DNA of 33,845 bases, taken from positions 1 through 33,845 of the forward strand of contig JALIHJ010000090.1 in NCBI GenBank assembly GCA_022984795.1. Direction: 5' to 3'. Below the pieces are notes generated by a model. It saw only the letters and a program-made list of their open reading frames with translations. It made no database searches and had not been told where the DNA came from. Position 1 is the first letter of the stretch; each line of letters opens with the position of its first letter. This document shows, piece after piece, positions 1-33,845 of this stretch. Source of the stretch: Fabrea salina. Lineage: Eukaryota > Ciliophora > Heterotrichea > Heterotrichida > Fabreidae. Position numbers and translations under genes: made by a program.

Positions 1-1232
1 GCAATAGCTTACATCTCTTCTTCAAGTACTTTCCGAGAGGACATGGGGATCTCTCCAGAACTCTACGGGGTGATGACGGGGCCTTTGTTTCTGATCCTAG
101 TAGCAGTATCTACTTTTTTGCACGTATGAGTTAGTCAGAGCACATACTTAGACAAGGTTCTGCACATAAAGTGGATGCTAGTTGCTTACTCAGGGATTAC
201 TTCAGCAGCAGTGCTAGTGATTTCAGCAAGTAACCAGACCTGGCAAGTAGTAGTGATGCTGGGAGTGATTGCAGTTTCTTCTTCAGGGTTGGTGCCTGCT
301 TTTTTGAAGCAAGTAGGTAGGCACTTTCCTTCCGACAAAAGAGGACTTGCTTTGGGGTTCTTTCAGATGAGAATATACTTAGGAACTGCTTTGGCTTCTT
401 TAGTGATCTTTCCTTCTATTTACTTAGGGTGAGTGATAAGTAGTTGGCGGATGGCCTTTTTGGCGATTGGCCTGTTAGGAGCGGCTTACTGCTTAGTGAT
501 GGTGTTTGTGCTGCGAGACGAAGTCAGAAAAAGCGAAGTGCTACTGCTAGACACAACTCAAGGAAGCTTACTCGAGAAGTTTAAAGTGCTTGCAAAGAAC
601 CCTACAGTGCTGCTAGTGACTTTTGCCAACTTTGTCAGGTACGGCTCAGGACTGGCTAGAGGCTTTTACGAAGCCCTGTACTTCGGAGAGCAGTTTCCAG
701 AACACCTCCACGAGTACTGTTAATTAACGCAGCAGGTTTGCTGCTTGCACCGATTTCTTTGTACTTAGGAGGGAGACTGTCTGACTACAAAGAAAGACAC
801 CAAAAACACAAGTGGATGCCTCTTATTTGCAGGTAAACTCTAAACAGTGTCACTAACCTGGCCTGTGTGCCTCTTCTGGTTTTGATGTACTCGACAGAGT
901 CCTTTTTGGCAGCTTCTATAAGCTTGCTGGCGGTGTACTCGATAGGCGAGACCTACATTTCCTTGAACATTTCGATAGTGTTGAACATCACTCCTAAGTC
1001 GATGCACGCCCTGCGTAAGTTTTAAATAGAGTCAGGAGTTATGCTGTGCATTTCAATGCTGGGAGGAGCACTGAGTTGCCTTACAATGGGGTACTTGTAC
1101 GAGGACCTGGACTCTTTGCGTGAAGGACTGCTTTGGGTAGTCACAGGGGGATTTGCTTTGTCAGGGGCGTGTTTCTTTTTGGCGAGTTTCTTTTACGAAC
1201 AAGTCAAGAAAAGGCTTTTGGAGTACCATTAG
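1..1232 (+). CDS. MFS transporter, 5' end outside the window
   Basis: C-terminal part of a multi-pass transporter of the major facilitator superfamily, about 390 residues. The frame is open from base 1. It contains hydrophobic helices, the loop GRHFPSDKRGLALGF, which resembles the cytoplasmic loop of MFS proteins, and GGRLSDYKERH, which resembles the conserved G-x-x-x-D-R/K loop. Four 15-nt introns (124-138, 429-443, 833-847, 1015-1029) carry or flank the apparent frame breaks, and removing each restores continuity (for example YLG|WRMAFLAIG). One further break near 719 is not explained by a 15-nt intron. The protein reads best (INAAGLLLAPISLYLGG) if one base is missing there; a 14- or 17-nt GT-AG intron starting at 719 is the alternative. 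The gene ends with TAG at 1230-1232, overlapping the stop of the opposite-strand gene. The substrate cannot be told from sequence. The family call is firm. Confidence 0.85.
124..138 (+). other. 15-nt intron (MFS gene)
   Basis: gtatgagttagtcag. GT...AG, A at position 10, in-frame stops inside. Removal joins FLH to STYLDK. Confidence 0.85.
429..443 (+). other. 15-nt intron (MFS gene)
   Basis: gtgagtgataagtag. It contains an in-frame TGA. Removal gives YLGWRMAFLAIG, a typical MFS helix start. This rules out reading the TGA as tryptophan here. Confidence 0.9.
833..847 (+). other. 15-nt intron (MFS gene)
   Basis: gtaaactctaaacag. Contains an in-frame stop. Removal joins MPLIC to SVTNLACVPLL. Confidence 0.9.
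1015..1029 (+). other. 15-nt intron (MFS gene)
   Basis: gtaagttttaaatag. Contains an in-frame stop. Removal joins SMHAL to QSGVMLCISMLGG. Confidence 0.9.
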
Positions 1233-1567
1233 CGTGTAACTAAAGTGTTAATTTTTTTGGTTAGGGCTTTTTGGAAGTCTTCTAGCAAAGCAGAGTACTC
1301 TTGGAGGCACCTCTGAGAGCACTTAGAAAGGTCTTGACTCTCCCAGCACTCTAGTTTGCAGTACTCAACTCCTTTTTTGACGTACAAGTTCTGTTTGTTT
1401 TTGACGTACTCTTGTAAGCTGTCTAGGTCCCGGGAACATTCATTTTTGCACTCAGAGTCTGTGCAGTTCTCTATGCACAGGTTATTTTTTGCCTGGAGTG
1501 CTTTCAACTTGGTTTGCCAGCTTTCTGAGTTCAGAAAAACTTCTGTATCAAAGTGCAGTTCAGCCAT
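1229..1567 (-). CDS. Small twin-CX3C cysteine-motif protein
   Basis: A 112-residue protein with four CX3C motifs in two pairs: CIENC with CKNEC around residues 31-45, and CKLEC with CSQRC near residues 75-95. The rest is charged, helical sequence. Twin CX3C arrangements are known from mitochondrial intermembrane-space proteins such as small Tims and from the DUF842/FAM136A family, where cysteine pairs form disulfides between two helices. The spacing here is tighter than in FAM136A, so I do not assign a family. The start is the ATG complementary to 1565-1567; an upstream reading without ATG would run into the neighbouring exportin gene. The stop TAA overlaps the stop of the convergent MFS gene. 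The start lies 6 bp from the start of the divergent exportin gene. Confidence 0.7.
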   Translation of the reverse strand: MAELHFDTEVFLNSESWQTKLKALQAKNNLCIENCTDSECKNECSRDLDSLQEYVKNKQNLYVKKGVEYCKLECWESQDLSKCSQRCLQEYSALLEDFQKALTKKINTLVTR

Positions 1568-1576
1568 ATTAATATG
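1565..1576. promoter_or_regulatory. 12-bp palindrome joining two divergent start codons
   Basis: CATATTAATATG is a perfect palindrome. Its two ends are the ATG codons of the minus-strand CX3C gene and the plus-strand exportin gene, leaving only ATTAAT between them. Any promoter must lie inside the neighbouring coding sequence or use these six bases. A function is inferred only from position. Confidence 0.6.
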
Positions 1577-4370
1577 CTGGATATCTGCGTGTTTGAAAAG
1601 ATCAGTCAGGATTTCTTTAAGTAACTTATAAGTAGTGAAGGTCAAGCTGCAGACTACGTCAGTGAACTGATTGAATCACAAGAAGGAACTTTTTGTTTCC
1701 TTAGCTGTGCTAACTAGTGATTGCTCTGACCAAGCCTACATGCTTGCTGCCAAAGTACTAGAAAGAAAAGCCACGAAGTAAGATTTAAGCAGTCACTGGA
1801 CCCTACTGACTCCCGAAGTAAGAATCCAGGTCTACCAAGCTGCTCTTCAAAGACTCTATAGTTCAAATTTAGACCTAGTGCTTTCGCAACTAGCTTCAAG
1901 ATACGCTCGCCAGTTTTGGAACGAAAGCAGCGAGTTCTCCCAGCTGCCTAAATACGCTGCAGAACTCATCCAAAAAGGCTGTTTGAACAAAGGACTCTGT
2001 TTGCTGAAACAACTAGTAACTGAGATGCACCCTCTGTCAAGTGAAGCACTTCCTCAGCACAAAAGGAACTCTGAGTGCTTCAAGAAAGAACAACTAGGGA
2101 GTATCTTAGAAGTAGGAATGAACTACATCCAAGAACTAGAAGCACTGCGACTAGTGAGCAAGGTGCTTGACTTTTCAGAGTCAGGTTTGTGGAGTTACCA
2201 AGACTGGTGCAGACTCACAAGAGTGCAGGATATTGCTGTGTTTTACCAATTGTACAAAACTTACGGAGACTACTCTGAAGGGGCTGAGTTGGTCCTCAAA
2301 GTTCTAGGCCACACTGTTACAGAGCCCTACTTCAATGAAGAAACCAAACTTGACGTACTCCAAAAACTAACTGAGTTTGTTGGATTGCTTTTAAAAAGAG
2401 AAGTTGTGTCCCATGAACTCCTGGTGCTTTTGTACAAGATCTCCCAAACAAGAACTCTTCAGTACCTAGAAGACAGACTCGACCTAAGAGAGTGGTTGCA
2501 ACTAGTGCACAACCACACAACTTTTTGCTTAAATAACCAAGTGAACGGAAACACCTTGCACTACTTAGTGGGGTTTTGGGAGTGCTTAATTGACTTTGTA
2601 GACTTTAAACAGGAGTTCTGGTACAACAAAATCACTGAAGTTACAAAAGCACTTATAAAGCACAGTGTGGAATACGAGTCAAAGGACCAAGTAAACAAAG
2701 TGAGTTCCTTAGTCAGAGTGTGTTTTGTGGAGGTAGGTAGTTTACTCATTCAGGAATTCAAAAGTGGAGCAGAGAAAGTAGTGTCTGGAGAGTGGGGAGC
2801 TCAAAAACTAGGAGTCTTGGTAAAAGTACTGGGCACTTTACTAGTCAACAACTCAGAACAATACCACCAAGTTACTAATAAATTCACTTTAGTGGAAACT
2901 CAGACACACCAACTCGAAGTCCGAGTCCAGGTAGTGCACTTAACAATAGAGTTACTAGAAAGAGCCCAAAACTACCCAGTTCTAAGAGACCCTGCACTGG
3001 TTAAGTCTTGCTTTAAGGTCCTTGGGGTGTTTTTAGGAGCTTACCTACCTCTAAAGGCACCTAGTGACTCCGTTCTAGAAGGCTTAGGCCCCTTAGTTCT
3101 CAAGAAACTGCTTAGGGTTTGCTTGAACCCATTTACTTTTTGTCCAGTTTTTTTCAACAAGCTAACTAAAATGCTCCGGAAGACCAGTTCTGGAGTTATG
3201 TGTGGGAAGTTAGAACTACTGGACTCCCATGAAATTCTAACTAACTGCCAGAACCCCAACTTAGACAAGCAAAGCCGACTTGAGTACATGGAGGGCATTG
3301 CTAGGGTCTACTACAAAACCCAAGCCTGCTTAGACCTCAGTCAGTTTATAAGCTGTGGAGATTTACTACTTGCAGTCCAAGACCTAAGGGGTTTTTTGAG
3401 AGGAGCAGAAACTACTAAAGACTTTAGAGTTTTCATGAACTGGTACTTTAGTGGTGTGTCAGGGCACTTAACCAGTTACTTAAGAAGCAACTTCGAAAAT
3501 TTAGGAGTTGCTTTGATAACTCTAGTTAGAGACTTGAGTGAAAACAAGCTAGGAAGACTAGAACTAGGACAACACGCTTCAGAACTAATCACTCTGTTCA
3601 ACTACTGCTTAGAGTTAGTGAGTTTTTACATCTCACAACTAATGCAAGCCAACAACTTCAAAGTCTTTGCAAGAACTGTGGAAGTCTTCAGCAACATACT
3701 TACAGGAAGGCACTTTGGGGTCACTGGGAGAATTGTACTGTGCAACCAAGACATCAGAAACAACTTCGAAGCTGTGTTCCAACTGGTTCTACAAGTACCT
3801 ATCCAAGTGGTGCTGTCTAACCAAAAAACACTTAAGCCAGTCTTCAGCTTTATAAGACACATCAGCAACCAGAAAGTGCTTCTTCCTTACTTTTACAGAA
3901 TTGACCCTCTTGCTATGAACCACCTTTTAGAGATACTCAACCACACAGTGGACTCCCTGCACCACGAAATCTGCATTCTGAGCTTCTCGACCCTTTCAGA
4001 AGTCATTAAAGACCTTAACTCCCCTGAAGAGCTTAAGCTGGAGTTTTTGGAGACTCAAGACTCAGGGCTCAAACAACTCATGAAGACTCTGTTTTTGGTG
4101 CTGCTTAAAGGCAACGGGAAGTACGTAAGGGAGTTGTCTGTGCCTTTGCTAGGACTTGTTAACTTGAAGCAGAGTTACTACCTAGAAATAGTTGAGTGGC
4201 TAACTACTTTGCAGGGCCCAACTCGGCAGCAACTTCTGCAGTTTGAGTTGGAACAACTTTGGAAAGACTTCTTGTGGAGCGAGGACCCCTTTGAGTCGCA
4301 GAAGAACATGGGAAAAGCCAAAGCCTTCACAGAGACTCTTGTAAACTTTTCCAAAAAAGTAGTTAATTAA
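1574..4370 (+). CDS. XPO7: Exportin-7-like nuclear transport receptor
   Basis: Importin-beta/exportin HEAT-repeat protein of about 920 residues (human XPO7 is about 1090). Exportin-7 carries cargo through the nuclear pore with Ran-GTP. From memory of the human protein, collinear matches are NTLHYLVGFWE...ITEVTKA (human SVHYLLSLWQ...PEVTKA), AVQDLRGFLRG...LVRDLSENKLGRL (human LVRDLRGIAFA...LMAELVHNRSQRL), and the C-terminal EFSKKVVN-like end. Exon 1 is 1574-1620, with introns at 1621-1635 and 1778-1792. Between 1637 and 1717 the frame shifts by one extra base (FCFLSCAN stops at TAG; the next frame reads TSDCSDQAYMLAAK). I find no 15- or 16-nt GT-AG intron to explain it; only a 10-nt GT-AG (1695-1704) fits the phase. 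TAA at 4368-4370 overlaps the convergent gene's stop. Confidence 0.85.
1621..1635 (+). other. 15-nt intron (exportin gene)
   Basis: gtaacttataagtag. Starts inside codon 16. It carries a TAA in the upstream frame and has A at position 10. It supports the 1574 start because it links exon 1 to an open frame. Confidence 0.75.
1778..1792 (+). other. 15-nt intron (exportin gene)
   Basis: gtaagatttaagcag. Contains an in-frame stop. Removal gives LERKATNHWTLLTPEVRIQ, running straight into the long exon. Confidence 0.9.
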
Positions 4371-5679
4371 TACTCTGTAAGTAGTTTAATGGTTTCAGCC
4401 CACTCGTGGATTTCTTCTAACAAAGAGGACTTCAACACAACTCGTTTGTTGGCACTGAGTCTCCTCAAAAAGCCTTGAGGTTTAGTTTCAACTACTTCAA
4501 AGTAACTTTCTTCCTCGCTAGAAGGCACCAAAACCCTTGCTCCTGTCAAGACCAGCGTAAAGTAGGGCTCAACTAGGTCTAAGTCTCCGCTTTTGAACAA
4601 GTGCAGGAATCTGTCTTGTGTAAGCACTACAAAGCATTCTTTCCAGTCACTAAAAACTCCAGTTTCGCGCAGAAGCACTCCTTGCTTAACAACTAAGTTA
4701 GTTCGGGGAGGTTTCTCAAGTTCCCACATCAAAAGCACTTCCAAGGGTTCTGTGCCTTCGCCTATGTTTTCAAGCAGAGGTTTTTCGTCCTGTGTAAGTA
4801 ACTTGTCAGCTGAGAGCACTCCAGTTAGGTCTTCAGAGACTTCCGAAAGGGCCTTTTCAACTGAGGAAGAGTCAGTTGAGTAGACTTTTTTGTGGATTTC
4901 TATGTACTTGCTCATAGCTGTTTTGACAGCTTTGATTCTTTTGGTTTCAAGTTCAGTTATTTCTTTCCAAAAAGTAGCCACGAAGTTAGCGTAGGCTTTT
5001 TGGATTTCGAAAACCCTTTCACAGGCCTTCACGTACTTGTTTTCTGAGAGCCAAACACAGCTTTTGTTTTGTTGGCCAGCACTCAACTGGATCTCGATGT
5101 TCCTGAAGCCTTCTAAGTGGTCTTTGAAGCTCTTTTCTACTTTTGAGTTGAGTGCTGAAAGTTCTTTTTTAAGTGCTTCAGCCCGCATGTGGCCTTCGCT
5201 TACTTTGCTGTCGTAGTCCAGCATGATGTCTGCCAGATCAGACTTTAAAAGCTCTCTCTATAGAACGCTTACTCTACTTCTCCTGAAAAGTTCTTAAGTG
5301 ACTCGCAGAGTTGGTTTTGGAAAGAGTTCACAGCAGACAGTCCTGACTTGAGGGAAGTTGAAGACTTGGACTGGGAAGGCAAGTAGACTAGTTGGGAACT
5401 CAGCACGTTGCTTGAGTTGAGTTCGCTGTCTGCTCTTTCTTTGAGGAACCTAGCAATGGCCAAGTTGGCTTCTCTGCCAATGTTGGCTTTTTGGAAGACT
5501 CTTGACAAAATAGTTTCAATGAGGCTGCGATGCAAGTTGGTTTTTTGGGCTAAGTGGTAGTTACCTCTTTGGTCTTCCCAAAGCTTCAGAGCAATGAAGC
5601 TTTCCTTTTTCTTTTCCCAAAAATCTTGCAGTGGCTCTACTCTGGAGCTTTCTAAAAAGGAGTCTGTTTGTTTTTCCAT
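4367..5679 (-). CDS. F-BAR domain plus PH domain protein
   Basis: A 431-residue protein made of two open frames joined by an intron at 5256-5272. Residues 1 to about 260 look like an F-BAR helical module: FLESSRVEPLQDFW, FLKERADSELN (compare the F-BAR signature FLKERA..EE.YAK) and long charged helices. About residues 325-430 form a PH fold: KQGVLLRETGVFSDWKECFV, then strands, ending in an EEIHEWAETI helix with the expected tryptophan. F-BAR proteins bind and curve membranes, and PH domains bind phosphoinositides, so a role in endocytosis or membrane remodelling is likely. Splicing gives GEVEELLKSDLADIM without a break. The start ATG is at 5677-5679, 12 bp after the stop of the upstream LRR gene on the same strand. 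The stop overlaps that of the exportin gene. A 15-nt GT-AG at 5550-5564 could be a further intron. Confidence 0.75.
5256..5272 (-). other. Probable 17-nt intron (F-BAR gene)
   Basis: Read on the minus strand it is gtaagcgttctatagag. The usual 15-nt form, ending two bases earlier, leaves a stop in frame. The 17-nt form, or a 20-nt one starting five bases upstream, joins the two halves of the F-BAR domain. It lacks the A at position 10 seen in the others. Confidence 0.55.
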
Positions 5680-5691
5680 CTTAAGTTTACA

Positions 5692-7323
5692 CTATGTTAT
5701 TTCGAACCTTTCTAGGAGTTCTTTGAGTCCACTTTTGTTGCAAACTTCAGACTCGAAGTAACTTTTTTCGTTAGCAACTTTGATTTTCTTAAACACTGGA
5801 AAACTACTTCTGAAGGCTTCAAGGTCCTTTTTGGAGATCTGGGAGTTCCCTGAAATAGCTAGGTGTTGGAGTTTTTTGTTGAATTTAAGTTCTTCAAATA
5901 AGCACTCCAGGCCTTTAATTGTAAGTTGGTTGGACTTCACCGAAACCATAATTAGTGTTCTGCTTTTAATTGCTGACTTTAGTTCTTTTAAGTCTGAGTC
6001 TCTTAGTTGGCACTCGTCCAAGTAAACCACACTCAGAGTTCCACCCAACAGTCCTCTGCAAATATGTTTAAAGGGCTCTCCTCTAAGGGAGTTCTTTGAT
6101 ATATCAAGCACTTTCAGCGACCTACTCAGTCTGAGCAGTTTACCGATTCCAATAGCTCCAGCCACTCCTATTGGAACTTGTGTTGACTTCAGACACTCCA
6201 AGTTCGAGTCACAGCACGCCATAACTATGCTGCTAAAAGCTTGGTCGTCTATTGAGTTGTTGCCAATGTCCAAGCAAGTTAGGGTATCCAGTCTTCCAAG
6301 CAGAACCGAAATAGCTAGGGCAGAAGCACCTGAGATGTTGGTTGAGTTCAAGTTCAGGCAACTAAGGTTTTTTGAGTGAGTAGTTAGCATGCACAAAATC
6401 AAGCTGCAGCAAGTATCTTGTAAAGAATTGCCCTTTAAGTTCAGGTACTTTAAGTTTTTCAGTTCTTTGTGACTCAGTATGCTAAATGCTATAAAGTCTC
6501 GAGTTAAACCACTTGACTTTAGGTTTAAACTTTGGGAGGTTAGTTCAGGAAGCTTTTGAACAGTGGCGTAAAACTTCTGAGTGTCAAAGTCTTTAAGGGC
6601 CTTAAGGTACTTTTTGACCTCTGGTGTGGCTCCAAGTTCCCTAGTAAACACAACCTTTCGGGAGTTTTTAACGTTGTAAAGAGCCCTGAACACATCATCC
6701 TGGGTTTTTGCTTCTTGAGGAACTTTCAGTCTATAAGCTTCCAACACGGACTTTCCCAAACCTAAGAAGTAAGCTTTTTTGTCAAATCTGTTTTTTCTGG
6801 GCTTAAAAACTTCAGAAGTTACGAAGTCAAGTTTTTCTTCAAGAGTTTTTAAGCCTTCAAGTTTACTTTTGATTTCTGGTAAAATTCCTGGTCTAGGAGG
6901 GGCCTTAGGTCTAGGTCCAGAGGACCTGATTTCTTGCTCAATTCTTTTACAAATGGCTCTGGCAGCTTTCTTTTTAACTTTGACGGGCGAATTCATCAGC
7001 AGTGCTTCTCTGGGGTTGGAGTCTAGGAGTTCCCAGGGGTCAACTTCTGTTTGGGAGGATTCCATGTTGTTGGTTTTGTTGTTGACTGTGATGAACAAAG
7101 CAGTAGTGAAGTTTGGAGCAATTCTTAGTTTACTGACGAGTTTGTGAGACTCTGAAATGGGCAAGTTCGAAACTGACTTGTTATTTAAAGTTTCAAGTGA
7201 GTAGTTGCTAATTGATTTTTCTGAAGCCTGACTCCGAAGTGAGGTGAGTTTGTACAAGTGTCTTTTCTGCGATTTAAGATTCAAAGAGCGTCTGGGCAGA
7301 GCTTTTTCGCTCCTTGAGTTCAT
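5692..7323 (-). CDS. Leucine-rich-repeat protein, ribonuclease-inhibitor type
   Basis: A 543-residue protein. The first 100 or so residues are basic and serine-rich and probably disordered. From about residue 270 onward there are repeats of the form LKNLKYLNLKGNSLQD, LSCLNLNSTNISG, LTCLDIGNNSIDD, LKVLDISKNSLRG and LQHLAISGNSQIS, spaced by 28-30 residues as in RNI-like LRRs. These form a curved protein-binding surface. In ciliates and other flagellated cells RNI-like LRR proteins often work in axonemes or as scaffolds, but nothing here fixes the role. ATG at 7321-7323 is the first in the frame. TAG ends it. It is followed by the F-BAR gene after 12 bp and preceded by the MFS gene's stop 33 bp away. 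Confidence 0.75.
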   Translation of the reverse strand: MNSRSEKALPRRSLNLKSQKRHLYKLTSLRSQASEKSISNYSLETLNNKSVSNLPISESHKLVSKLRIAPNFTTALFITVNNKTNNMESSQTEVDPWELLDSNPREALLMNSPVKVKKKAARAICKRIEQEIRSSGPRPKAPPRPGILPEIKSKLEGLKTLEEKLDFVTSEVFKPRKNRFDKKAYFLGLGKSVLEAYRLKVPQEAKTQDDVFRALYNVKNSRKVVFTRELGATPEVKKYLKALKDFDTQKFYATVQKLPELTSQSLNLKSSGLTRDFIAFSILSHKELKNLKYLNLKGNSLQDTCCSLILCMLTTHSKNLSCLNLNSTNISGASALAISVLLGRLDTLTCLDIGNNSIDDQAFSSIVMACCDSNLECLKSTQVPIGVAGAIGIGKLLRLSRSLKVLDISKNSLRGEPFKHICRGLLGGTLSVVYLDECQLRDSDLKELKSAIKSRTLIMVSVKSNQLTIKGLECLFEELKFNKKLQHLAISGNSQISKKDLEAFRSSFPVFKKIKVANEKSYFESEVCNKSGLKELLERFEIT

Positions 7324-7356
7324 ATTTAATAACTCATTAAATTTACACTAGTTACA

Positions 7357-8790
7357 CTAAGAAAGTTCCCCCGGAATGATTTCGTGAAGCATGTTTTGGG
7401 CGTTTAAGGTCCTGGCTCTCTGTATAAGTCCTGGAGGAATCTCAGAAACGGGCATGCTGAACCTGACCTTCAAAGGTTTGTTTTCCACTAAAACTAGTGA
7501 AAACAAGGCCATCAAAAAAAGCAAACAAGCCAAAACTATCATGCAGGTGCTAAGTCCTCCCTTTTCGTAAACAGGTCCGAACAACACTGGGGCAAATCCT
7601 CCTGCTAGTCTAAACACAGCAGTTTCCCAGCCCACTCCCACTGCTCTTACTTGGGAAGGGTAACTCTCTGCAACTATAGTGCTCAGCACAGTTCCGTTCA
7701 CAGTGTTCAAAAGGTAAAAAAAACAAGCCAGTGCTAGTTGGTAGTAAAACTGTTCACTTATCAAAAACAACAGAACCAATAACCCCACTGCTGAGTTAGA
7801 TGCTATGTGGAGTTTCTTGACTCCTAACTTGCACTTCAGCAGCAAAGTCCCAATGTAAGTTCCTGGAATCGCAGAGGCCTGCATGCTGATCACTAGCACA
7901 AAAGCCATCCACTTCTCATCTGGAATAGTCCACACTGGCATGAAAAACACCACTCCGAAAAAAACCAAAGCACTAAGGGACCCTGCAACTGTGATTTTGA
8001 GAGTTACATGTCTGAGTCCAGGCCTCATGAGCTTCCTAACGCTTTGCTTAGTGGCGAGTTCGTACTGGGAAGGAAGCGACCTCAAGAACTCCTTGACGAG
8101 TGCTTCGTTTTTTTGGTTGTACTTAGCTAGCTTCCTGAGCACCCTTGCTAAGTTGCGCATTTCGTGGTGTTCGTACAAAAATGCAGGGCTTTCAAGCACG
8201 TATGTTCTGAAGTAAGCAAAAACAAAACAAAGCAAGGAAAAAACCAAACAAGTCACTCTCCAAATCTCGAAATTGCCTGTTCCAGTGAAGAACAGCAGAA
8301 GTGCTATGGCTGCCACAGATATTCCTCCTAAAGCCCACATCAAGTTAATCACGTTCACTAAGTTCTTCTTGATAGAAGGCAGGTTTTCTATGAAAACTGT
8401 GTAAGTAACTACCAACTCGCCCCCGTTTCCAAGTCCCAAAAGAAAACTGCACGGAAGCATGTAGTAAATGCCTGGAGCAAACACCAGCAGCAAAGAACCC
8501 AGTGCAGAGAAAAGAATCATTCTCTGGAAAGTGTAGGCACGCCCGATGTTAGCTGCCATTCTGCTGAACCAAATGCACCCTGCAAAGGCACCTACGTTGT
8601 AAACCACAGCCAGAAGGGACCCTATAGAAGTCCCTTGCTTCAAGTCAAGCAGAATGATACTTATCAAAATAGGCCACACCATTATAAGAGCTGTTCCAAA
8701 ACAACAGTTAACGAAAAGGGACCGGTGGTACCTGCCCCAGCCGAGTTGGTCAAGTGTTCCTTGAAGCAGTGTTTTGGGGTCTGTTTTCAT
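7357..8790 (-). CDS. MFS sugar-porter-type transporter (SV2/SVOP-like)
   Basis: A 477-residue protein with about 12 hydrophobic helices. The opening LDQLGWGRYHRSLFV is typical of SVOP/SV2 relatives, where G-W/F-G-x-F/Y-H starts helix 1. ESPAFLYE follows helix 6, as in sugar-porter family members. ESYPSQVRAVGVGWETAVFR and RLAGGFAPVLFGP match the helix 10-11 signature (E-x-x-P-x-x-x-R). The open frame continues upstream of the ATG at 8788-8790, but that extension is the antisense of the charged neighbour gene, so I use this ATG. Substrate is unknown; organic ions or sugars are both possible in this family. It is divergent from the 8828 gene with 37 bp between starts. Confidence 0.85.
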   Translation of the reverse strand: MKTDPKTLLQGTLDQLGWGRYHRSLFVNCCFGTALIMVWPILISIILLDLKQGTSIGSLLAVVYNVGAFAGCIWFSRMAANIGRAYTFQRMILFSALGSLLLVFAPGIYYMLPCSFLLGLGNGGELVVTYTVFIENLPSIKKNLVNVINLMWALGGISVAAIALLLFFTGTGNFEIWRVTCLVFSLLCFVFAYFRTYVLESPAFLYEHHEMRNLARVLRKLAKYNQKNEALVKEFLRSLPSQYELATKQSVRKLMRPGLRHVTLKITVAGSLSALVFFGVVFFMPVWTIPDEKWMAFVLVISMQASAIPGTYIGTLLLKCKLGVKKLHIASNSAVGLLVLLFLISEQFYYQLALACFFYLLNTVNGTVLSTIVAESYPSQVRAVGVGWETAVFRLAGGFAPVLFGPVYEKGGLSTCMIVLACLLFLMALFSLVLVENKPLKVRFSMPVSEIPPGLIQRARTLNAQNMLHEIIPGELS

Positions 8791-8827
8791 TAGAAGTATT
8801 TGATAAGAAAATGGAATAATAATTACT

Positions 8828-9637
8828 ATGAGTAAAGAAGACGAAGGATGGGAGACCATAGAAGAACCCCAGCACGAAATCGAGATTGACGTCACAAAAC
8901 TAGCAGAGGAAGAAGAAGAAGCCAGTGACGAAGAAATCAAACAAACAGGTCCTGCCTGGCAGCTCACTGAAACAACCGAAGAACCTAAGCCGCAAGAACC
9001 TTCAAAGCGGACCTACGACCCCAAAACCAGAATCCAAAAGAAACTGCAACAAAACGACTTCCCAGAAATGGGAGACCTCAAACCAGAAACTGAAAAGTCC
9101 AAAGACGAACAACTCAAAGCCAAAGAAAAGGCCAAAGTAGAAATCCCCAAATCAGGAAATGTGTTTATGCAGCTCAGGGAAGAAGAACCCCAAGAAGAGT
9201 CCAAACCCAAAGAAGCTGAACTCAAACAAAAGAAAAAGAAAAAGAAAGCCCAAAAACTAGACCTCAACCTTAAAGTAACCACCACACAAGCCCAACAAGA
9301 AAAAGGACTCTTCGAAGAAGAAAAAAAAACTTACTTGCCTCCTCAGGCCAGAGAACGCCCTCAGTTTAGAGGCGAACCTCGTCCAGGCGGGATTTTCAGA
9401 AACACACAAAAAGTCAATCCCGAAATCGAAAAACCCAGGACAGGGTTCGTGAGGAACGAAGTCAAAAGTGAAAAACCCATAGATCCCATAGTTACCAAAG
9501 GACCTCCCCCTAGGCGCTTCATCAACTCTAAGAAACAACCCAACTCTCAGGAAAAAAAGCCCACCACAGACGTCTGGGGTGAAGACGTAGGGCCCAAACA
9601 ATCAAACCAGTGGGAAAGCGGAAAGTCTTTATTCTAA
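8828..9637 (+). CDS. Charged disordered protein, possibly RNA- or translation-associated
   Basis: A 269-residue protein almost without hydrophobic clusters. There is an acidic N-terminus (EEEEEASDEEIKQ), then Lys/Glu/Pro-rich sequence with a Lys run (KQKKKKKKAQK) near residue 140, and an Arg/Pro/Gly-rich C-terminal half (PQARERPQFRGEPRPGG, GPPPRRF). The short motif NDFPEMGDL resembles the FPxLG-type motif of eIF4B-like and other translation-linked proteins, but this is too short to name a family. Codon use is like the neighbours, and the frame is uninterrupted. TAA at 9635-9637 lies one base from the stop of the convergent gene. Real gene: high confidence; function: unknown. Confidence 0.7.
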   Translation: MSKEDEGWETIEEPQHEIEIDVTKLAEEEEEASDEEIKQTGPAWQLTETTEEPKPQEPSKRTYDPKTRIQKKLQQNDFPEMGDLKPETEKSKDEQLKAKEKAKVEIPKSGNVFMQLREEEPQEESKPKEAELKQKKKKKKAQKLDLNLKVTTTQAQQEKGLFEEEKKTYLPPQARERPQFRGEPRPGGIFRNTQKVNPEIEKPRTGFVRNEVKSEKPIDPIVTKGPPPRRFINSKKQPNSQEKKPTTDVWGEDVGPKQSNQWESGKSLF

Positions 9638-9638
9638 A

Positions 9639-10046
9639 TTAATAGTTTTTAAGTATTTGAAGGAACTGCTCGTCCGAGATACTTTGTGCCCAGAGGGGAT
9701 GCTTGATTTGCAGCTTGTTCATGGTTTGCTTAATCTTGGCGATTTTCTCTGGAGACAAGTTAATTTCCCTTTTAGGGGGTTTTTGTGGTTCCTGCAGTTC
9801 TTCGTCAGAGGACTCACTGGCGCACTTGTAGTACCCAAAGTCGTCTTGGAAGTCAGCTTCCCAATCTTGGTTAGGAGAAACGGACTCTTCAAATGTTTTT
9901 AAAGGGTCTACTTTTGCAGCTTTTGTGAGTTGGTAGTCCATATCCAGGACTTTGAGTCTTCTTTCTGCTATTTGTTGGTAGTTCACATCTTCTAGCTGGT
10001 TTTCTAGATACTCATTAATAGTTGCTACTGCTTCTGAGTCCGACAT
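9639..10046 (-). CDS. MEA1-like small acidic protein
   Basis: A 135-residue acidic protein. The C-terminus SPEKIAKIKQTMNKLQIKHP followed by LWAQSISDEQFLQIL has the pattern I recall for the conserved end of the MEA1 (male-enhanced antigen 1) family: a helix with IK..M, a short linker, then P-x-W-A and a S-D-E/x-Q-W/F helix. MEA1 function is poorly known. The middle (DWEADFQDDFGYY, ESSDEELQEPQKP) is acidic and disordered. Start ATG at 10044-10046, stop TAA. It is upstream of the long non-coding gap and divergent from the kinase gene. The family call is tentative. Confidence 0.55.
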   Translation of the reverse strand: MSDSEAVATINEYLENQLEDVNYQQIAERRLKVLDMDYQLTKAAKVDPLKTFEESVSPNQDWEADFQDDFGYYKCASESSDEELQEPQKPPKREINLSPEKIAKIKQTMNKLQIKHPLWAQSISDEQFLQILKNY

Positions 10047-10639
10047 TACTTGTTAGGTTCTTTTTTAAACTAGTTCATATTTCTAATTTTCAGGTTAAAT
10101 GAAAAAAGGTCTGTGGCAGAGGTAGTTCCTCAAACAAGTATAATTAGCAACACCAAGCCTGAAATTTAAGTATCTGGCAAATTAAAAATAATCTTTTAAG
10201 TTCAATATTTGTGAAGTAGCAACATAAACAGTTTTGTGTGTCTTAGTTAAAAGCTAAGCCTAAGAACTACACAGGTGTGGCTTGGCCTAGACTTAAAAAG
10301 TATGGTGAGCTGTCCAAATGCCAACTTTTTCCCAAAGTTAAGTTGCGTTATGCAGCTTCCAACGGACACTCAAAACCAAGTCTAGGCTCCACAGGTCAAG
10401 CACCTACTTAAAAACTCCTGAACCCCCATTCTCAGACAGAAACTCAGTAAAATTTTCACTTCTATATTTACTGGGTTAGCATAAAGAAGCTAAAATCAAA
10501 GAACTAGAGACTTTAACGATACTCCTCCGGAGAGAACTGGTTTTCCAAGCGAGTTTAGACTAGTTAGAACTTAATGGTCTTTTATTCTTATCATATCAAC
10601 TAATGTTAAGTAAATATTTGGGTGTTTATAATAATTATT
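10047..10639. other. 593-bp intergenic gap between divergent genes
   Basis: By far the longest gap between genes here; most are 1-125 bp. It separates the minus-strand MEA1-like gene from the plus-strand kinase, so it must hold both promoters. No ORF with a recognisable product is visible. It contains a candidate structured RNA (10276-10393), a small hairpin (CTTAG 10242-10246 with CTAAG 10254-10258), and AT-rich sequence just before the kinase start. I see no tRNA boxes. Confidence 0.7.
10276..10393. ncRNA. Candidate structured RNA with nested helices
   Basis: Complementary segments nest without conflict. TGTGG 10276-10280 pairs with CCACA 10389-10393. GCCTAGACTT 10285-10294 pairs with AAGTCTAGGC 10378-10387 (10 of 10). 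TGAG 10306-10309 pairs with CTCA 10369-10372 and, after one bulged C, TGTCC 10311-10315 pairs with GGACA 10364-10368. Inside are two hairpins: AACTTT 10323-10328 with AAAGTT 10334-10339 (loop TTCCC), and AAGTTGC 10340-10346 with GCAGCTT 10352-10358 (loop GTTAT, one G-U if transcribed from plus). The result is a closed three-way junction. The strand is not settled; one U-G pair fits plus and becomes A-C on minus. It lacks the signatures I know for SRP RNA, RNase P RNA, U1-U6 or a CCCTAACA-type telomerase template. Confidence 0.5.
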
Positions 10640-12061
10640 ATGGGAGTTAATGCTTCAACTAAAAACGACCAGAAGTTCATTGAAATATATAGAAACCGGT
10701 TGAAGCAGAAACTAAACGACTGCTACGAGTACAAAAAAACTGAGTTTGAAAAGTACTACAAAACCCTTTCCGTTGTCAAAAGGAACGACAATGGAATCAT
10801 CAGGAAAGTAGTCCGTGTCAATAGACTTGACAGAAAGGACCCACTGAAGTCCGAAAACGACTTGCCTGTATTTGCTGTAAAGACGGTGTACAAATATAGT
10901 GAGCACTCTAGTCTTAATAATTTGATTAGAGAAAAAGAAATGCTCAAAATAGTGGACCATCCTTACGTTTTAAGGTTTTTTGACTACATTGAAGAACAGT
11001 ACTCAATCCACTTTGTAACAGAACTCCTCGAAGGTTCCAACTTGCACCAGTTCGTGACTCAAAAGGGCAAACTCGACGAAGCCCAAGCTGCGTCTTTAGT
11101 CTGTAAAATACTAAAAGGGCTTAATTACCTCCACACCCACTACATAATACACAGAGACATCAAACCTGAAAACATTATGGTCTCTGAAGACTTGGAGCAG
11201 CTCAAGATAATAGACTTCGGCTTGTCTAGGTTCATCCTTCCCAAAGAAAAAGTTACCTGCCGAGTTGGGACTCCTTTGTACATGGCTCCAGAAGTTGTTG
11301 CCAAAAAGTATGGCGTCAAGTGTGACCTTTGGTCTTTAGGTGTGCTTACTTACTTCTTAGTTACTGGCAACTACCCCTTTAAGTGCTCCAGAAAGCACGA
11401 AGAAGGTGTGAATAGAGACATAGACTCTATTGTTTGGGAGGGCATTTCTTGTGACTTAAAAGACTTCATTAAAGGGCTGTTACAGCCAAAGCCCTGCAAA
11501 AGGTTCTCGGCCGAGCAAGCTTTATCACACGTGTGGCTTGACTTTTCGAACCTCCCTGCGTCTATTCCTATCAAAGAGACTTCGAACATTCTGAACTACC
11601 GTGCAAAAAATGCATTCTTAGAAGAAACTCTGCAGTTACTTGTTAAGACACTTCCTCAAACTAAAGTAAAAACTCTAGCTGAAGCTTTCTTTTGCCTTGA
11701 AGAAGCTAGCAAAGGCTATGTAAATGTACCCAACCTTAAGAAGTACCTTCTGAAGTTCTGCAGTTCTTCCAAAAAGGCGATGAACAAAGACCTGAAAATG
11801 AACAGAGTTTACTTCTCTGAATTCCTAAGTATGAACTTCAAAGAAGCTGCAGACGACCAGTCTCTAGAAATTGTTTTTAAGCTTTACGACTACGACAACG
11901 ACGGCTATTTAAGTTTAGATGACCTCGAGTGGTACTTCAACTCTGTAGGCAAAAGTTTGCAACACACTGAACTTTTCGAGGTTTTTGGTGAAAACTCTTT
12001 ATCTGACAAAGTTGACTTCGGCCAGTTTAAGACTATAATTAACAATCTGATTTCTCAGTAA
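10640..12061 (+). CDS. CDPK-like calcium-dependent protein kinase with degenerate P-loop
   Basis: A 473-residue Ser/Thr kinase. The start MGVNAS fits an N-myristoylation signal (Gly2, Ser6), so it is probably membrane-attached. Kinase domain about residues 43-310: AVK with Lys81, HRDIKPEN at 171-178, DFG at 192-194, and GTPLYMAPE. The glycine-rich loop is not recognisable: the stretch before Lys81 reads VVKRNDNGIIRKVVRV. The C-terminal 150 residues resemble a calmodulin-like domain with one good EF-hand loop, DYDNDGYLSLDD, and three eroded ones. Position 12 of the good loop is Asp, not Glu. ATG at 10640 is chosen over the in-frame upstream GTG because it gives the MG start shared with the paralogue at 25347-26798. 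TAA ends the gene 66 bp before the Kelch gene. Confidence 0.85.
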   Translation: MGVNASTKNDQKFIEIYRNRLKQKLNDCYEYKKTEFEKYYKTLSVVKRNDNGIIRKVVRVNRLDRKDPLKSENDLPVFAVKTVYKYSEHSSLNNLIREKEMLKIVDHPYVLRFFDYIEEQYSIHFVTELLEGSNLHQFVTQKGKLDEAQAASLVCKILKGLNYLHTHYIIHRDIKPENIMVSEDLEQLKIIDFGLSRFILPKEKVTCRVGTPLYMAPEVVAKKYGVKCDLWSLGVLTYFLVTGNYPFKCSRKHEEGVNRDIDSIVWEGISCDLKDFIKGLLQPKPCKRFSAEQALSHVWLDFSNLPASIPIKETSNILNYRAKNAFLEETLQLLVKTLPQTKVKTLAEAFFCLEEASKGYVNVPNLKKYLLKFCSSSKKAMNKDLKMNRVYFSEFLSMNFKEAADDQSLEIVFKLYDYDNDGYLSLDDLEWYFNSVGKSLQHTELFEVFGENSLSDKVDFGQFKTIINNLISQ

Positions 12062-12127
12062 TATTCTAGAAAGCTCTTTATTCCTTAAGTTAGGTATTGA
12101 ACTGCTCAGTGCAACTAGCTTTTAAAA

Positions 12128-15100
12128 ATGAAGTGTTTGGGCTTTTTCCTTTTAACTCTGTCCCTCTGCTACACTTACACCATTGAGAACCTTCCACAGT
12201 CAAACATTCCTCCTACTAAACGTTCTTACAACCAACTCATAAGAACCAACTCTAGCTTGATTTCGTTTGGCGGGTCCTCAACAACTAAGTTACAAGAAAT
12301 TTGGGAATTCGATATTGCAAGTAATAAGTGGAGAGAAATTTCGCCTACTACAACAGCAAGACCAGGCGAGAGAATAGACACAGGAGGTTTTACACTCGAA
12401 GATGGCAAAAGCTTCTGCGTTTTCGGGGGACTTGGCCTTAAAGGCGACCTCCAAGACTTGTGGTGCTTTAGATACGAAGGGTCAAGAGTAAGTGCTACAT
12501 AGTGGGTGGAAATAACCACATCTGGGGACATTCCTTCTCCTCGTTTTAGATTTGGTTACACAGATGCCGTGCATAACGGCACTAGGTATTTCTTTGTGTT
12601 TAGTGGCGTGACTGACTTTGAAAAGAGCAAAGAACTGTTTGCACTCAACCTAGACACTTGGGTTTGGAAAAAACTTCCTAGACAGGGAGAAGCCCCCAAT
12701 CCTAAAATTGGCCCAACATTAAATTACTACGAAGGGTTTCTCTACTTAGTTGGTGGAGATGCCAGGCTAAGTAAGTACCCCAGAATTTCGGACTTTTACC
12801 GATACGACTTAGCAAATTCTAGATGGGAAAATATCACTTCTTCAAGAACTTACACTCACAGGTACTTGCACGGAACTTGCATCTACCAGGACTACTTGTA
12901 CTTGTTTTATGGGTGGTCGAACTTAGTCAACTACAATATTGACTTAATTCAAAGAGTAGACCTAAAGTCTAGTGCTTATGAATGGGAAGATGTTTCTGTC
13001 AACAGAAAAGAAGACTACCATGAAATACTGAGGTCTGCTTACGGGTACAGTTGCTTTGAAGGCAAGTTACATATGGTTGGAGGGTATTCTTCTGAAAGCT
13101 TAAGGAACTCAGTAGTTGAGTTTGAATTAAACAAAGACCCTCTTGAGTACAGAGTCCTAGCTGAAGAGTACACAGGGCCTCTCAGTAGAACTGAGCACTC
13201 TTTAGCAGTCATCAACAAGAACTTCTACATGTTTGGCGGAATCAACAACCAAGAAGTCCTTGGGGACTTTTGGAAGTACCAAGAGGACTTAGGCTTGTGG
13301 ACTGAAGTAAACGCAGAAGGAATAAACCCCTCAGAAAGACTAGGCCACACTGCTGCTGCCTTTGCAGACAACCTGGTTGTTTGGGGCGGCGAAAACGACT
13401 CAGGCTTGCTGAATGACGCCTACCTGTACAACGCATACCTTAACTTGTGGCGAAAAGTAACTCCAAGTGGAGGGGTTCCAAGTCCCAGAAAGAACTTGTG
13501 TGCTGTGATGATCAAAAACCAACTCTACTTATACGGAGGGAATTCTTACACTGGAATCTCAAGTGAGCTTTGGAAACTCGACCTGGGACTGGAGTCTTAT
13601 GAACTGCTGAGCAAAGACGACTCCAAAGGCCCTGGTCCAGTTTCACACCACAGATGTTCTTACGAAGCCAACAGAGAAAACTTAGGAATGTACGTAATGA
13701 TGGGCCAAACTAAAACCAAAGAACCTCTAGGGCAGGTGTACTACTTCAACCTTAAAACCTTGGCTTGGCAAAAAGTGTTTGACGAGGGGTATAACGAGTT
13801 CCTTAACAGAGCAAGTGCAAGCGTTGTAAAACTCGAGAATGAAGTTTTTGTTTTAGGAGGAAGTATCTGGGACAATTTAGTGTTCAGCTCTTTTTTCTCT
13901 CTGGACTTGGACAACTCAGAGTACACCTACCACCTTGACTTTGACCAAGTAGTTTTCGGAGCAGCTTATGTGTACTACAAAGACTATTTATATGTGCACG
14001 GAGGAGGGTCTACTTCAGAAGCTGCTCCAGAGACTACTTCAAGGTCCGCTTCAAAGTCTGCTTCAGAGTCTGCTTCAAGTGGTGCTATAAGGAAGTACAT
14101 TCCAACTAACTCTTTCAAAAGAATACACATGAGGACCCTAACTAAAGAACCACTCTGTAGTCCAGGGACTTTTGAAAACCAAGGAGCTTGCTCTGTCTGC
14201 CCAAAAGGTACCTTTTCTTCTGCGTATGGAGCCCGGTTTTGCACAAAGTGCCCCCCAGGCACTTACAATACTTTTGAAGGTTCAAACTCGATTTACCAGT
14301 GTAGACCTTGTCCTGAAGACCACTTCTGTCCTAACAACGGGACTGTGTTTTTGTACCAGTGCTCAGGCTACCAAGTATGCTACGTAGGTTCTGTCCAGCC
14401 TACTTACCGAAAGATCGAAAGGAGTCAGTTGTCTCTCCAGCCTGACTTCTACACTGGGGCTTCTGGGAGCTACCAAAGTTTTATTTACTCAAGTCGTTTT
14501 GTTTTTGCTTTTATAGGAGTGTTGCTTTTGGCTTCAGTTTTAAGCATCAAGAAGCTAAGAAACTTAGTGGCTAAGGTTGACATTTTCAAGTCTTCACACA
14601 ACTACACACTAAACTACCCTATGATGTACAAAAAAACCTTTTTAGGGGGTTTTTTTGGGTGTGCTTTTATGGGTTTTGCTTTGCTTTTGGCAGGGGAGGC
14701 TTTGCTGGTGTTTGTTTACGATAACTTAGAAGAAACCAAAACCCTTGTGCCCTACGTAGTGCTGGAAAAAGAAAACGACAACATCAATGGCGACTTAGAA
14801 GTTAAACTGAAACTTCACTACTACGGAGGACAGTGCCTTTTAGAAGACATTTGCCACCCCACAATTAGCCTTGCTTTCGAGTCAATCCAAGGAGACCTAG
14901 AAACTGATTGCCAAGTGTTTGACGAAACGGGGTGTTTAATTCACATTGTGTGCAGGAACTGCCAGACACTAACTGGAAGCAAGATAAGCCTTGAAATATC
15001 GGAGTTGTTCAGTTATGCCTCTGCAATCCAGCTAGAAATGAACTCCACATCTTCGATTCCCGACCAACAGAGTTCAGTGGTCCAAACCATTGCAGCTTCG

Positions 15101-15706
15101 AAGCACAAAGTATTTGTAGGGAGTTTGCCTTCTGTATTCTACGTAAGTTTTATTCCTTCTGTAAGTTTTACTCAGGTCTTCCGAGACCTAGACACCGAAA
15201 AAACAGGGTACCATTTATCTGGTTTAGTAGCTCCTTCAGAAGGTTCTCAGCACGAAGTTCAAGAGTAATTGTTACTTAGACTCACAATTGAGTCCAACCT
15301 TAGAGTGATCATCAACATCCAAAGAAGCGACTCCGGACTTCTAACTAAAAGAGTTCAAAAACAGACTTTCCTGATGAGTCTAAGTGCAGTCATAGGTTCC
15401 ATTGTAGGAGTGTTTGGAGCCAGTAAGTTCTTGATGATTGTTTCTGAAAAGCAGTTTGTGGAGTTGAGTAGGTCCAAAGAGAAACAACAAAGCATGGAAA
15501 AAAAAACCCAGAAAATTTTGGACTTGGAGTTCCGTGTTTTTGGGAAGAACTTCACTAGGAGTCCCAGACAAACTCCCAGAAGACACCTAACCAGGAGGTC
15601 CACAAGGGTAGTTCCAGAGTCTTTTGTAGAAAGTAGGTACTTCTGCGAAGAAGACAGTGTAGTAGACCTGCATTCCCCACACTCAAGGCTAGCTTTTAAG
15701 TATTAA
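12128..15706 (+). CDS. Kelch-repeat / cysteine-rich multi-pass membrane protein
   Basis: About 1180 residues after splicing. An N-terminal signal peptide (MKCLGFFLLTLSLCYTYT) is followed by a Kelch beta-propeller to about residue 620, with repeats such as YFFVFSGVTDF, GFLYLVGGDAR, LHMVGGYSS, FYMFGGINN, LVVWGGEND and LYLYGGNSY. Next come a Ser/Ala linker, a GCC2/GCC3-type cysteine-rich stretch (CSPGTF...CPKGTFSSAYG, CTKCPPGTYNTFEGS), two hydrophobic helices near 14480-14560 and 14640-14720, a loop with cysteines, and a third helix in the last exon before a basic tail. This architecture (Kelch, then EGF/TNFR-like, then membrane helices) is common in large ciliate surface-protein families whose ligands are unknown. 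Introns are at 12488-12502 and 15265-15279, with a probable frame-neutral one at 15161-15175. A decaying paralogue lies at 29525-32200. Confidence 0.85.
12488..12502 (+). other. 15-nt intron (Kelch gene)
   Basis: gtaagtgctacatag. Contains TAG in frame. Removal joins EGSR to WVEITTSGD. The same position and phase are occupied in the Kelch pseudogene (29884-29898). Confidence 0.92.
14033..14080 (+). repeat. 12-bp tandem repeat encoding Ser/Ala linker
   Basis: Four successive 12-bp units close to tctgcttcagag (14033, 14045, 14057, 14069) code for the linker SRSASKSASESAS between the propeller and the cysteine-rich stretch. It looks like a recent in-frame expansion. Confidence 0.7.
15161..15175 (+). 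other. Probable 15-nt frame-neutral intron (Kelch gene)
   Basis: gtaagttttactcag matches the local intron consensus, including A at position 10. It has no in-frame stop, so the frame alone cannot prove it. If spliced, FIPSVSFTQVFRDL becomes FIPSVFRDL. Confidence 0.6.
15265..15279 (+). other. 15-nt intron (Kelch gene)
   Basis: gtaattgttacttag. Contains a stop in frame. Removal joins HEVQE to LTIESNLRVII and adds the last membrane helix and the cytoplasmic tail. Confidence 0.9.
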
Positions 15707-32001: not shown

Positions 32002-32170
32002 CCCAAACAAACCTGGTTTGTCTTGTGGGAAGTGACTTTGTTCAGGTTCTGTAATTTCTAAGCAGAACTTCTGGACTGAAGTATTTAGGTTCTGGACTTG
32101 TCATAAACAGAGTCCCAAACAAACCTGGTTGGCAGTGGGAAGACGTTAGGTTCTGTTTGGACTTCTAGAA
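32002..32170 (+). repeat. Degenerate direct repeat, 112-bp offset
   Basis: cccaaacaaacctggtt begins at 32002 and 32114, each followed by a similar gtgggaag and ggttctg pattern. The offset is twice the 56-bp offset of the repeat just upstream. No coding frame explains it. Confidence 0.55.
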
Positions 32171-32253
32171 GCAAGTTCATCTTCTACGGAATCCCGGTAC
32201 CAAGACTTAAAGCAGCTCAGCGAGGAAAGGCATCTTAGGAAAACATTAAAACA

Positions 32254-33523
32254 TCAGAAAAAGTCAACCGAACTAACGCCAAAAGTATGTCCTTCTAGTA
32301 ACTGGGTTTGCTCGCCCGTTTGCAGACTCCAAATTCTAACTGAGTTGTCTCCATAGCCCCCTCCGGACACTAAGTAGTTGTTGTCTCTTGATAAACTCAC
32401 TGAGCGCACATGGCCAGTGTGCCCTCTAAGAACTAGAGTTTGTTTTCCAGAAACAAGACTCCACACCCTGATAGTCTTGTCCCAACTTCCAGACACAACA
32501 AAGTCACCCTTACTAGAAATAACCACTGAATACACATGATAGTTGTGCCCATTCAGGACCCTAAGTTGCTGTCCAGAAACAACACTCCAGACCCTAAGTG
32601 CTTTATCCTGACCCCCAGAAACTATGAGGTCATCTCTACTTGAAATAGCTACTGAACAAACCTCGCTGGTATGCCCTTCCAGAACCTGGGTTTGCTCAGA
32701 CAAGTTCCAAATTCTAATAGTTTTGTCTCCACTTCCTGAAACAAAAAACTCATCCTTGCTAGAAACGGCCACTGACCTAACTCCATCACTATGACCTTTG
32801 AGCACTTGGACTTGCTTTCCGGAAACTAAACTCCACAGCCTGACTGTATTGTCAGCACTCCCCGACACAATTAAGTCGTTCTTTTTGGAAATAACTACTG
32901 ACCACACTGCACCACTGTGACCACTTAGTACTTGAGTTTGCTCTCCAGAGGACAGGTTCCACACTCTGATGACTTCATCAAAACCCCCAGAAACGATGAG
33001 TCCTTTAGTTTTACAAACAGTCACTGACTGCACTGCACTCGTATGACCCTGCAACACTCTAGACTGGTCGTTTTTCCAAACTCTAATGGTATTGTCTCTG
33101 CTTCCAGAAACTATCGTTGGAACACTAACAGTGAACTTGTCAGCACTCAGCTTCTCAATGAGATCATTGAGTTTGCCTAGTTGTTCTCTTGATGGTTTGA
33201 CAGCGTCTACCCACCCCTGACTTGCTCTATACTAACTGCATTCATTTCGTAAAAGTCAGTAACCCTTTTTTCAGGTTATTGAGTTGGTTAAGTTGATATG
33301 AAGTTATTGTTTGGACTTGCTTAATTATTAACTGACTCAACTCGGCTATTTCTTCTTCGCGTTCAGAAATCTGGGCAAGGATTTGGCCCAAACTTACTCT
33401 ATGAGGAAGAGAGCATGTCATGTGCCCCCTAATAGTGTGATTAAGAATTGTATGTGTGCACAGTAAAGCTCCGCACTCACACTTAGAAGTGGGTTGGCAT
33501 TTTCCCTTGCAAGAAGATTCCAT
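32254..33523 (-). CDS. Zinc-finger / coiled-coil / seven-bladed WD40 protein
   Basis: About 423 residues if two single-base frame changes are allowed. The N-terminus (33523 down to about 33400) has a Cys/His cluster (CKGKCQPTSKCECGALLCTH) like a B-box-type zinc finger, then a short coiled coil (EREEEIAELSQLIIKQVQ). WD40 repeats fill the rest: six GH...W units such as GHTSAVQSVTV and SGSWDKTIRVW. The closing blade is shared between the N-terminal strand (IVSGSRDNTIRVW) and the C-terminal GHTFGVSSVDFF, the usual way a propeller shuts. The frame changes fall in an A run (complement of 33266-33271) and a G run (complement of 33214-33217). Without them the gene splits into a zinc-finger ORF and a WD40 ORF. 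It ends in TGA. The partners of such proteins are unknown. Confidence 0.7.
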
Positions 33524-33555
33524 TTGTAACTAATGCTTTAATTAGAGTTTAATAA

Positions 33556-33845
33556 ATGGAAGGTAGCTTACAAAATAGCTACTCGGAGGATAACTCACTA
33601 GTAGAGGAGGGCCTAAACTGCTGGACTTACTTTTTGCTCAGTGTGCTCAACTACCCTTGGGAAGGCACCGCTCACTTTGAGATCGCGCTAAACTTAACTA
33701 TTGGGCTAGTTTGGTCGGTGCTGCTACTGGACCGTGGCTACGATCTAGCTTGCGTGGCTTTTTTTTCAGGTTTCTTCGGAGCTTTGCTAGTAGTGGTGAA
33801 TTTGAGCAAATACGGAAAACTTCTATTGATGGGTGTTTTTGCAGC
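33556..33845 (+). CDS. Start of a multi-pass membrane protein, cut by the window edge
   Basis: An open frame of 96 codons from ATG 33556 to the end of the window with no stop. After a short hydrophilic start (MEGSLQNSYSEDNSLVEEG) come hydrophobic stretches: TYFLLSVLNYPW, IALNLTIGLVWSVLLL, LACVAFFSGFFGALLVVVNL and a fourth beginning KLLLMGVFAA. Family not recognised. The start is 32 bp from the divergent zinc-finger/WD40 gene, a spacing typical of this window. Confidence 0.7.
   Translation, partial: MEGSLQNSYSEDNSLVEEGLNCWTYFLLSVLNYPWEGTAHFEIALNLTIGLVWSVLLLDRGYDLACVAFFSGFFGALLVVVNLSKYGKLLLMGVFA

Follow-up and report, generated by a model that had tools for sequence, protein, structure and literature searches.

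Why does a very compact ciliate genome keep 593 bp of non-coding DNA between two divergent genes, and does the nested fold in the middle of that gap belong to an RNA gene? The window examined here, the whole stretch of 33,845 nucleotides from Fabrea salina, is C93, one of the 103 contigs that make up an 18.33-Mb genome. EF-hand protein kinases, a MEA1-like protein, and a Kelch protein are among the products of its genes, and this gene content, together with the CCCTAACA/TGTTAGGG telomere repeats found at both ends of contig C7, fits a heterotrich ciliate. We favor, tentatively and with a probability of roughly 0.45, a predicted orphan gene for a structured non-coding RNA on the plus strand of the gap.

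The gap and its neighboring genes

The gap extends from 10047 to 10639, with limits set by the ends of open reading frames (ORFs) and a codon-score scan. To its left lies the gene for a MEA1-like protein of 135 amino acids (9639–10046, minus strand; Pfam PF06910, E 4.1e-7), and to its right the gene for a CDPK-like protein kinase with EF-hands (10640–12061, plus strand; Pfam PF00069 and EF-hand models), whose start at 10640 was taken from reading of the sequence. A protein-coding gene inside the gap was ruled out by the codon-score scan, in which the best 90-nt score in any frame was 0.08, against a yardstick of 78% of in-frame coding windows scoring above 0.15. A laxer codon-score map left just 10194–10482 (289 bp) as non-coding and called both ends of the gap coding; these end calls were taken as artifacts because the 90-nt scan found no coding frame there.

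The first-pass annotation had described this as the only long gap. Its length of 593 bp was confirmed, but "only" proved too strong, since non-coding runs of 232 bp (32058–32289) and 164 bp (33392–33555) also occur in the window. When codon scores were mapped over 125 kb of the genome, the 95 non-coding runs had a median length of 47 bp, and the longest were those of the signal recognition particle (SRP) RNA (362 bp), U3 (337 bp), U1 (292 bp), and the candidate element (289 bp), a ranking biased by the fact that the SRP, U3, and U1 loci had been picked for their RNAs or their promoter box. The next-longest, at 269 bp (L031:1875–2143) and 242 bp (L009:108–349), contained no recognized RNA. These two and the two further runs of the window, all within 160–270 bp and without a recognized RNA, contributed no window to the best 35 listed in the fold scan of the same 125 kb; separately, a plus-strand segment at 33486–33603, overlapping the 164-bp run, had a z score of −3.20 in the scan with 118-nt windows. 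The 125-kb scan and map comprised the window and 30 loci (L006, L007, L009–L011, L013–L035, L037, and L039). L001–L005 (window copy, C7 copy, telomere) and L040–L042 were omitted, as were loci present elsewhere in the set, namely L008 (U6) and L012 (U2), contained in L014 and L024, and L036 and L038, which repeat stretches of L009 and L023.

The other head-to-head gaps between ATG-starting ORFs in the window measure 51, 91, and 123 bp (n = 3; a fourth possible pair at 1645/1878, with non-ATG starts and 232 bp apart, was left uncounted). Two divergent promoters therefore seem to need little room, and the middle of the 593-bp gap seems unexplained by such a need. Between the helices of the element and the flanking starts lie 235–247 nt on the kinase side and 227–230 nt on the MEA1-like side. 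A cis-acting role, either as a structured leader at the 5′ end of the kinase mRNA (plus strand) or as DNA belonging to the two divergent promoters, would agree with the position of the element upstream of the kinase gene and on the same strand, and EF-hand kinase genes would be plausible targets of regulation. However, a leader starting at about 10270 would hold five upstream ATGs (10302, 10318, 10350, 10574, and 10603), and the three short head-to-head gaps suggest that leaders in this genome may be short. We consider a cis-acting role improbable.

Predicted fold of the element

The predicted structured RNA core occupies 10276–10393 on the plus strand, with a minimum free energy (MFE) of −41.5 kcal/mol. 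Four helices, which the first-pass annotation had described as nesting into a three-way junction, are all readable in the sequence, and the MFE structure reproduces this shape apart from two minor changes of register; the pairing itself is thus confirmed, and an RNA function is putative. The outer 5-bp helix (TGTGG/CCACA, 10276–10280 with 10389–10393) appears in both the sequence and the MFE structure. It is followed by a 10-bp helix (GCCTAGACTT/AAGTCTAGGC), which pairs 10285–10294 with 10378–10387 in the register first read and which the MFE structure moves one pair outward (10284–10293 with 10379–10388, one G-U pair). An asymmetric A-rich bulge (UAAAAAGUA, 10294–10302) is present in the MFE structure, and the inner 9-bp helix, TGAG(C)TGTCC/GGACACTCA with one bulge, is extended there beyond an AAA bulge by UGGU/ACCA. 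The junction holds a 6-bp hairpin with the loop UUCCC (10323–10339), in which a T5 run lies at 10326–10330, and a 7-bp hairpin with the loop GUUAU (10340–10358). A possible extension, AGGTG/CACCT with a partial helix, would widen the element to 10273–10405 and rivals the outer 5-bp helix; it appears when 10230–10420 is folded (−58.2, z −4.03). Watson-Crick pairs account for 38 of the 40 pairs in the MFE structure, so the pairing may instead reflect an inverted repeat at the DNA level. The element lies in a G+C-richer island (10270–10405, 47% GC), a value inside the range of six recognized RNAs of the same genome (43–56%); the GC content is 43% from there to 10440 and 29–31% in the remaining gap.

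Strength of the fold relative to chance

On the plus strand, the MFE of −41.5 for 10276–10393 compared with a shuffle mean of −25.5 (SD 3.4; z −4.67), and none of 200 shuffles folded as low. The minus strand of the same interval reached −38.0 (z −2.72), a value equaled or exceeded in stability by 2 of 200 shuffles. When 118-nt windows were moved in 10-nt steps along both strands of the contig and ordered by composition-corrected energy, the plus-strand element came second among 6,746; over the 125 kb it came third among 24,306, with a best z score of −4.8. The two windows with lower z scores in the larger scan (13936–14053 of the window and 2326–2443 of L031) both lie in long open frames. A grid with larger steps (60 nt; 1,126 windows of 120 nt) did not place the element among its 25 best, because the two outer arms never fall within one window of that grid.

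Recognized RNAs of the same genome provide a scale for these values. The best windows at U2 (z −4.43), SRP (−4.37), and U5 (−3.50) were among the best of the 125-kb scan, a stability of structure that the element shares, and its best z score exceeds all three, which counts for an RNA gene. U1, U3, U6, and RNase P, on the other hand, contributed no window to the best 35 listed among the 24,306, so a low z score is an unreliable mark of an RNA gene here. Coding windows elsewhere in the genome reached z scores of −4.9 and −5.1, and such values therefore occur without an RNA gene.

We corrected for the choice of the best window in the gap with segment-wise shuffles of the whole gap (n = 500), in which the best window matched the real one in 2 shuffles on the plus strand and in 53 on the minus strand, giving a better-strand p of 0.006. 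By a cruder statistic, the minimum over both strands, 12 of 400 shuffles reached −41.5 and 25 of 400 reached −39.9, the value of the real gap on that statistic's own grid. The plus-strand fold is thus beyond chance, though less overwhelmingly than the single-window z score implies, and the energy test on both strands, a check proposed in the first-pass annotation, did not refute the candidate. From the 125-kb scan and map, we estimate that about one contig in 20 of similar size would hold one such non-coding window by chance.

In the main rival explanation, the gap would be long for some other reason, such as regulatory DNA of the two divergent genes, and would contain an inert structure that arose by chance. 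The modest gap-wide significance (p 0.006, or 0.03–0.06 by the cruder statistic), the coding windows with similar z scores, and the existence of the 242- and 269-bp non-coding runs without a recognized RNA are all compatible with this explanation. A chance fold does not readily account for a G+C-richer island that covers the fold, although 43% GC continues to 10440, or for the strand specificity and for helices that are nested instead of forming one long repeat. We regard a chance fold as somewhat unlikely. That the plus strand stands out in the gap-wide shuffles and the minus strand does not counts for a plus-strand RNA gene.

Copies of the element

In a search of the genome, C93 and C7 each contained a single copy of the element, hence one per assembled haplotype, which rules out a dispersed repeat. 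The covariance model R1, applied to the window together with 34 of 39 loci (149 kb of the genome), returned nothing beyond the element. Positions 1–15369 of the window duplicate the telomere-proximal end of C7 with 94% identity over 15.4 kb (344 substitutions and 537 gap positions). Reading frames are broken in the C7 copy, where gap positions outnumber substitutions, as if this copy came from unpolished long reads or a second haplotype. The two copies are identical over 10270–10409; however, 16 difference-free runs of at least 139 nt, that of the element included, occur in the 15.4 kb, so identity at the element is uninformative on conservation and is compatible with a chance fold. Just outside the element, an 11-bp hairpin at 10441–10477 (z −3.61 in the window) is abolished in C7 (L003:4817–4868, minus strand; z −0.09) by clustered substitutions on both arms, in a comparison where scattered gaps are elsewhere the commonest difference.

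The ends of the element also bear on a different origin, as a retained internal eliminated sequence (IES) or a MITE-like relic in the somatic genome. TA dinucleotides lie at both sides (10268–10269 and 10405–10406), and the sequence has imperfect terminal inverted repeats. The parts of the Blepharisma report that treat this subject (PMC9942856) describe IESs that are mostly short and TA-bound, many of them palindromic or with inverted repeats, and the palindromic or MITE-derived ones resemble the element in being TA-flanked with inverted-repeat ends. In the same parts of that report (PMC9942856), most IESs are intragenic, whereas the element is intergenic, occurs singly per haplotype, is found in both assembled copies (without the left TA in one of them), and contains an internal three-way junction. 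Nested internal hairpins would be unexpected for a MITE. An IES or MITE relic is, in our judgment, the least probable of the alternatives and very unlikely.

A probable promoter box shared by small-RNA genes

Seven of the eight small-RNA genes identified with Rfam carry an exact CCCTTAAA 54–60 nt upstream of the model start, with offsets, counted from the starts of the Rfam models and not from mapped 5′ ends, of −60 for SRP (L006) and U6 (L008), −59 for RNase P (L011), −56 for U3 (L009) and U2 (L012), −55 for U5 (L039), and −54 for U1 (L027). U1 is a less independent case than the other six, since it came to light when loci retrieved by means of the box were scanned with Rfam. RNase MRP, the eighth, has no CCCTTAAA box within 300 nt. 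Downstream of the box, U1 and U2 have a TTAAAAGGG-like box, with similar ones in U3 and U5, and U6 and SRP have TTTAAGT; judged from these sequences, the two boxes together are likely to form a shared snRNA-type promoter. Counterparts of these genes elsewhere are transcribed by RNA polymerase II or III. The titles and abstract openings of the papers found on ciliate or heterotrich snRNA genes and the proximal sequence element (PSE) mention no such box.

An extended form, TGTCCCTTAAA, lies upstream of U1, U2, U3, and U6 and occurs 26 times genome-wide, compared with 12 times for the reversed control. An Rfam scan of the 26 loci placed U1, U2, U3, or U6 beside the box in four and a U4-like RNA in one, and recognized no small RNA beside the box in the remaining 21; the box alone is therefore not specific. 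The U4-like RNA (L032:1564–1654, plus strand; best model U4atac, 44.1 bits against a cut-off of 53) has a AATTTTTGG Sm-like site and was left out of the count of seven in eight because the box itself led to it.

The 593-bp gap contains no copy of CCCTTAAA with zero or one mismatch, and its best PSE-like site by position weight matrix is at chance level, being equaled in 149 of 300 shuffles. A U6-like TTTAAG box at 10165–10170 was rejected, since the start it implies (by eye, as in U6) runs straight into a T4 at 10194. The lack of a box counts against an RNA gene and fits a chance fold. However, RNase MRP also has none, so an RNA gene may lack the box, and its absence argues only against the commonest promoter type.

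Known RNA families

The covariance check suggested by the first-pass annotation was carried out with the models of Rfam 15: over the whole window no family reached its gathering score, and none matched at E values up to 1. The gap alone gave four chance-level matches (E 0.42–9), one of which, PART1_2 on the minus strand (10384–10566), touches the last 10 nt of the element. The annotation had also reported no motifs of SRP, RNase P, spliceosomal, or telomerase RNA in the element. SRP, RNase P, RNase MRP, U1, U2, U3, U5, and U6 were each located at other loci, so these identities were rejected, and none of their models matches the element; the family searches for SRP, U6, U3, RNase P, U2, U5, and RNase MRP gave one locus each above the cut-off. 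For telomerase RNA, judged by a template for TGTTAGGG telomeres, the longest template-like run in the gap, found by eye, is 7 nt (10051–10057, minus strand) and lies outside the element, and the best genome-wide match of the Telomerase-cil model, a weak one (E 0.36), lies elsewhere.

Small nucleolar RNAs of the H/ACA and C/D types resemble the element in size, in hairpin character, and in having an ACA close to the 3′ arm. An H/ACA RNA has a single-stranded ACA 3 nt from its 3′ end and a pocket 14–16 nt upstream. The ACA of the element (10391–10393) is paired inside the closing helix, about 19 nt from the internal loop (by eye, on an RNA whose ends are unmapped), and this class was rejected. 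C/D RNAs have a C box (RUGAUGA), a D box (CUGA), and a terminal stem; the best C-like box found by eye on the plus strand is ATGGTGA (10302–10308, one mismatch), with CTGA at 10418–10421 and no terminal stem, and this class was rejected as well. A search for SNORD14 gave no match. T5 runs inside the element on both strands (10326–10330, plus; 10299–10295, minus) speak against an RNA polymerase III unit. No match was obtained when a phage collection was queried with the gap or when viral contigs were queried with one exact 30-mer.

A candidate orphan RNA gene

The first-pass description of the element as an unrecognized structured RNA thus holds in that the plus-strand fold beats its shuffles and no Rfam family matches; the missing CCCTTAAA box and the coding windows with equally low z scores weaken it. 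The non-coding gap, the GC island, the distance from both flanking starts, and the lack of an Rfam match count for a plus-strand RNA gene, the plausible reading that we favor. Its product would be about 120–145 nt long, extending from about 10270 to 10405, with a long stem formed by the RNA's own ends, an A-rich bulge, and a junction bearing two short hairpins. By analogy with small ribonucleoproteins (RNPs), the closing stem may protect the ends and present the loops to a protein or a target RNA; transcription, the RNA ends, and RNP function are all inferred. The T5 run of the UUCCC hairpin, combined with the lack of an snRNA-type promoter, suggests RNA polymerase II acting from another promoter rather than an snRNA-type or polymerase III unit. 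Going further, the element could belong to a new structural class of small RNA specific to heterotrichs, with a long end-to-end stem, a three-way junction, and its own promoter without CCCTTAAA, which we consider doubtful.

The CCCTTAAA box is a firmer by-product of this work than the candidate element: although not specific alone, it can help to locate genes for small RNAs in this genome. Seven of eight recognized small-RNA genes carry it, in contrast to RNase MRP and the candidate. Should the element prove to be transcribed, this very compact ciliate genome would possess an orphan structured RNA, which would serve as a marker for small-RNA genes without the usual promoter box.
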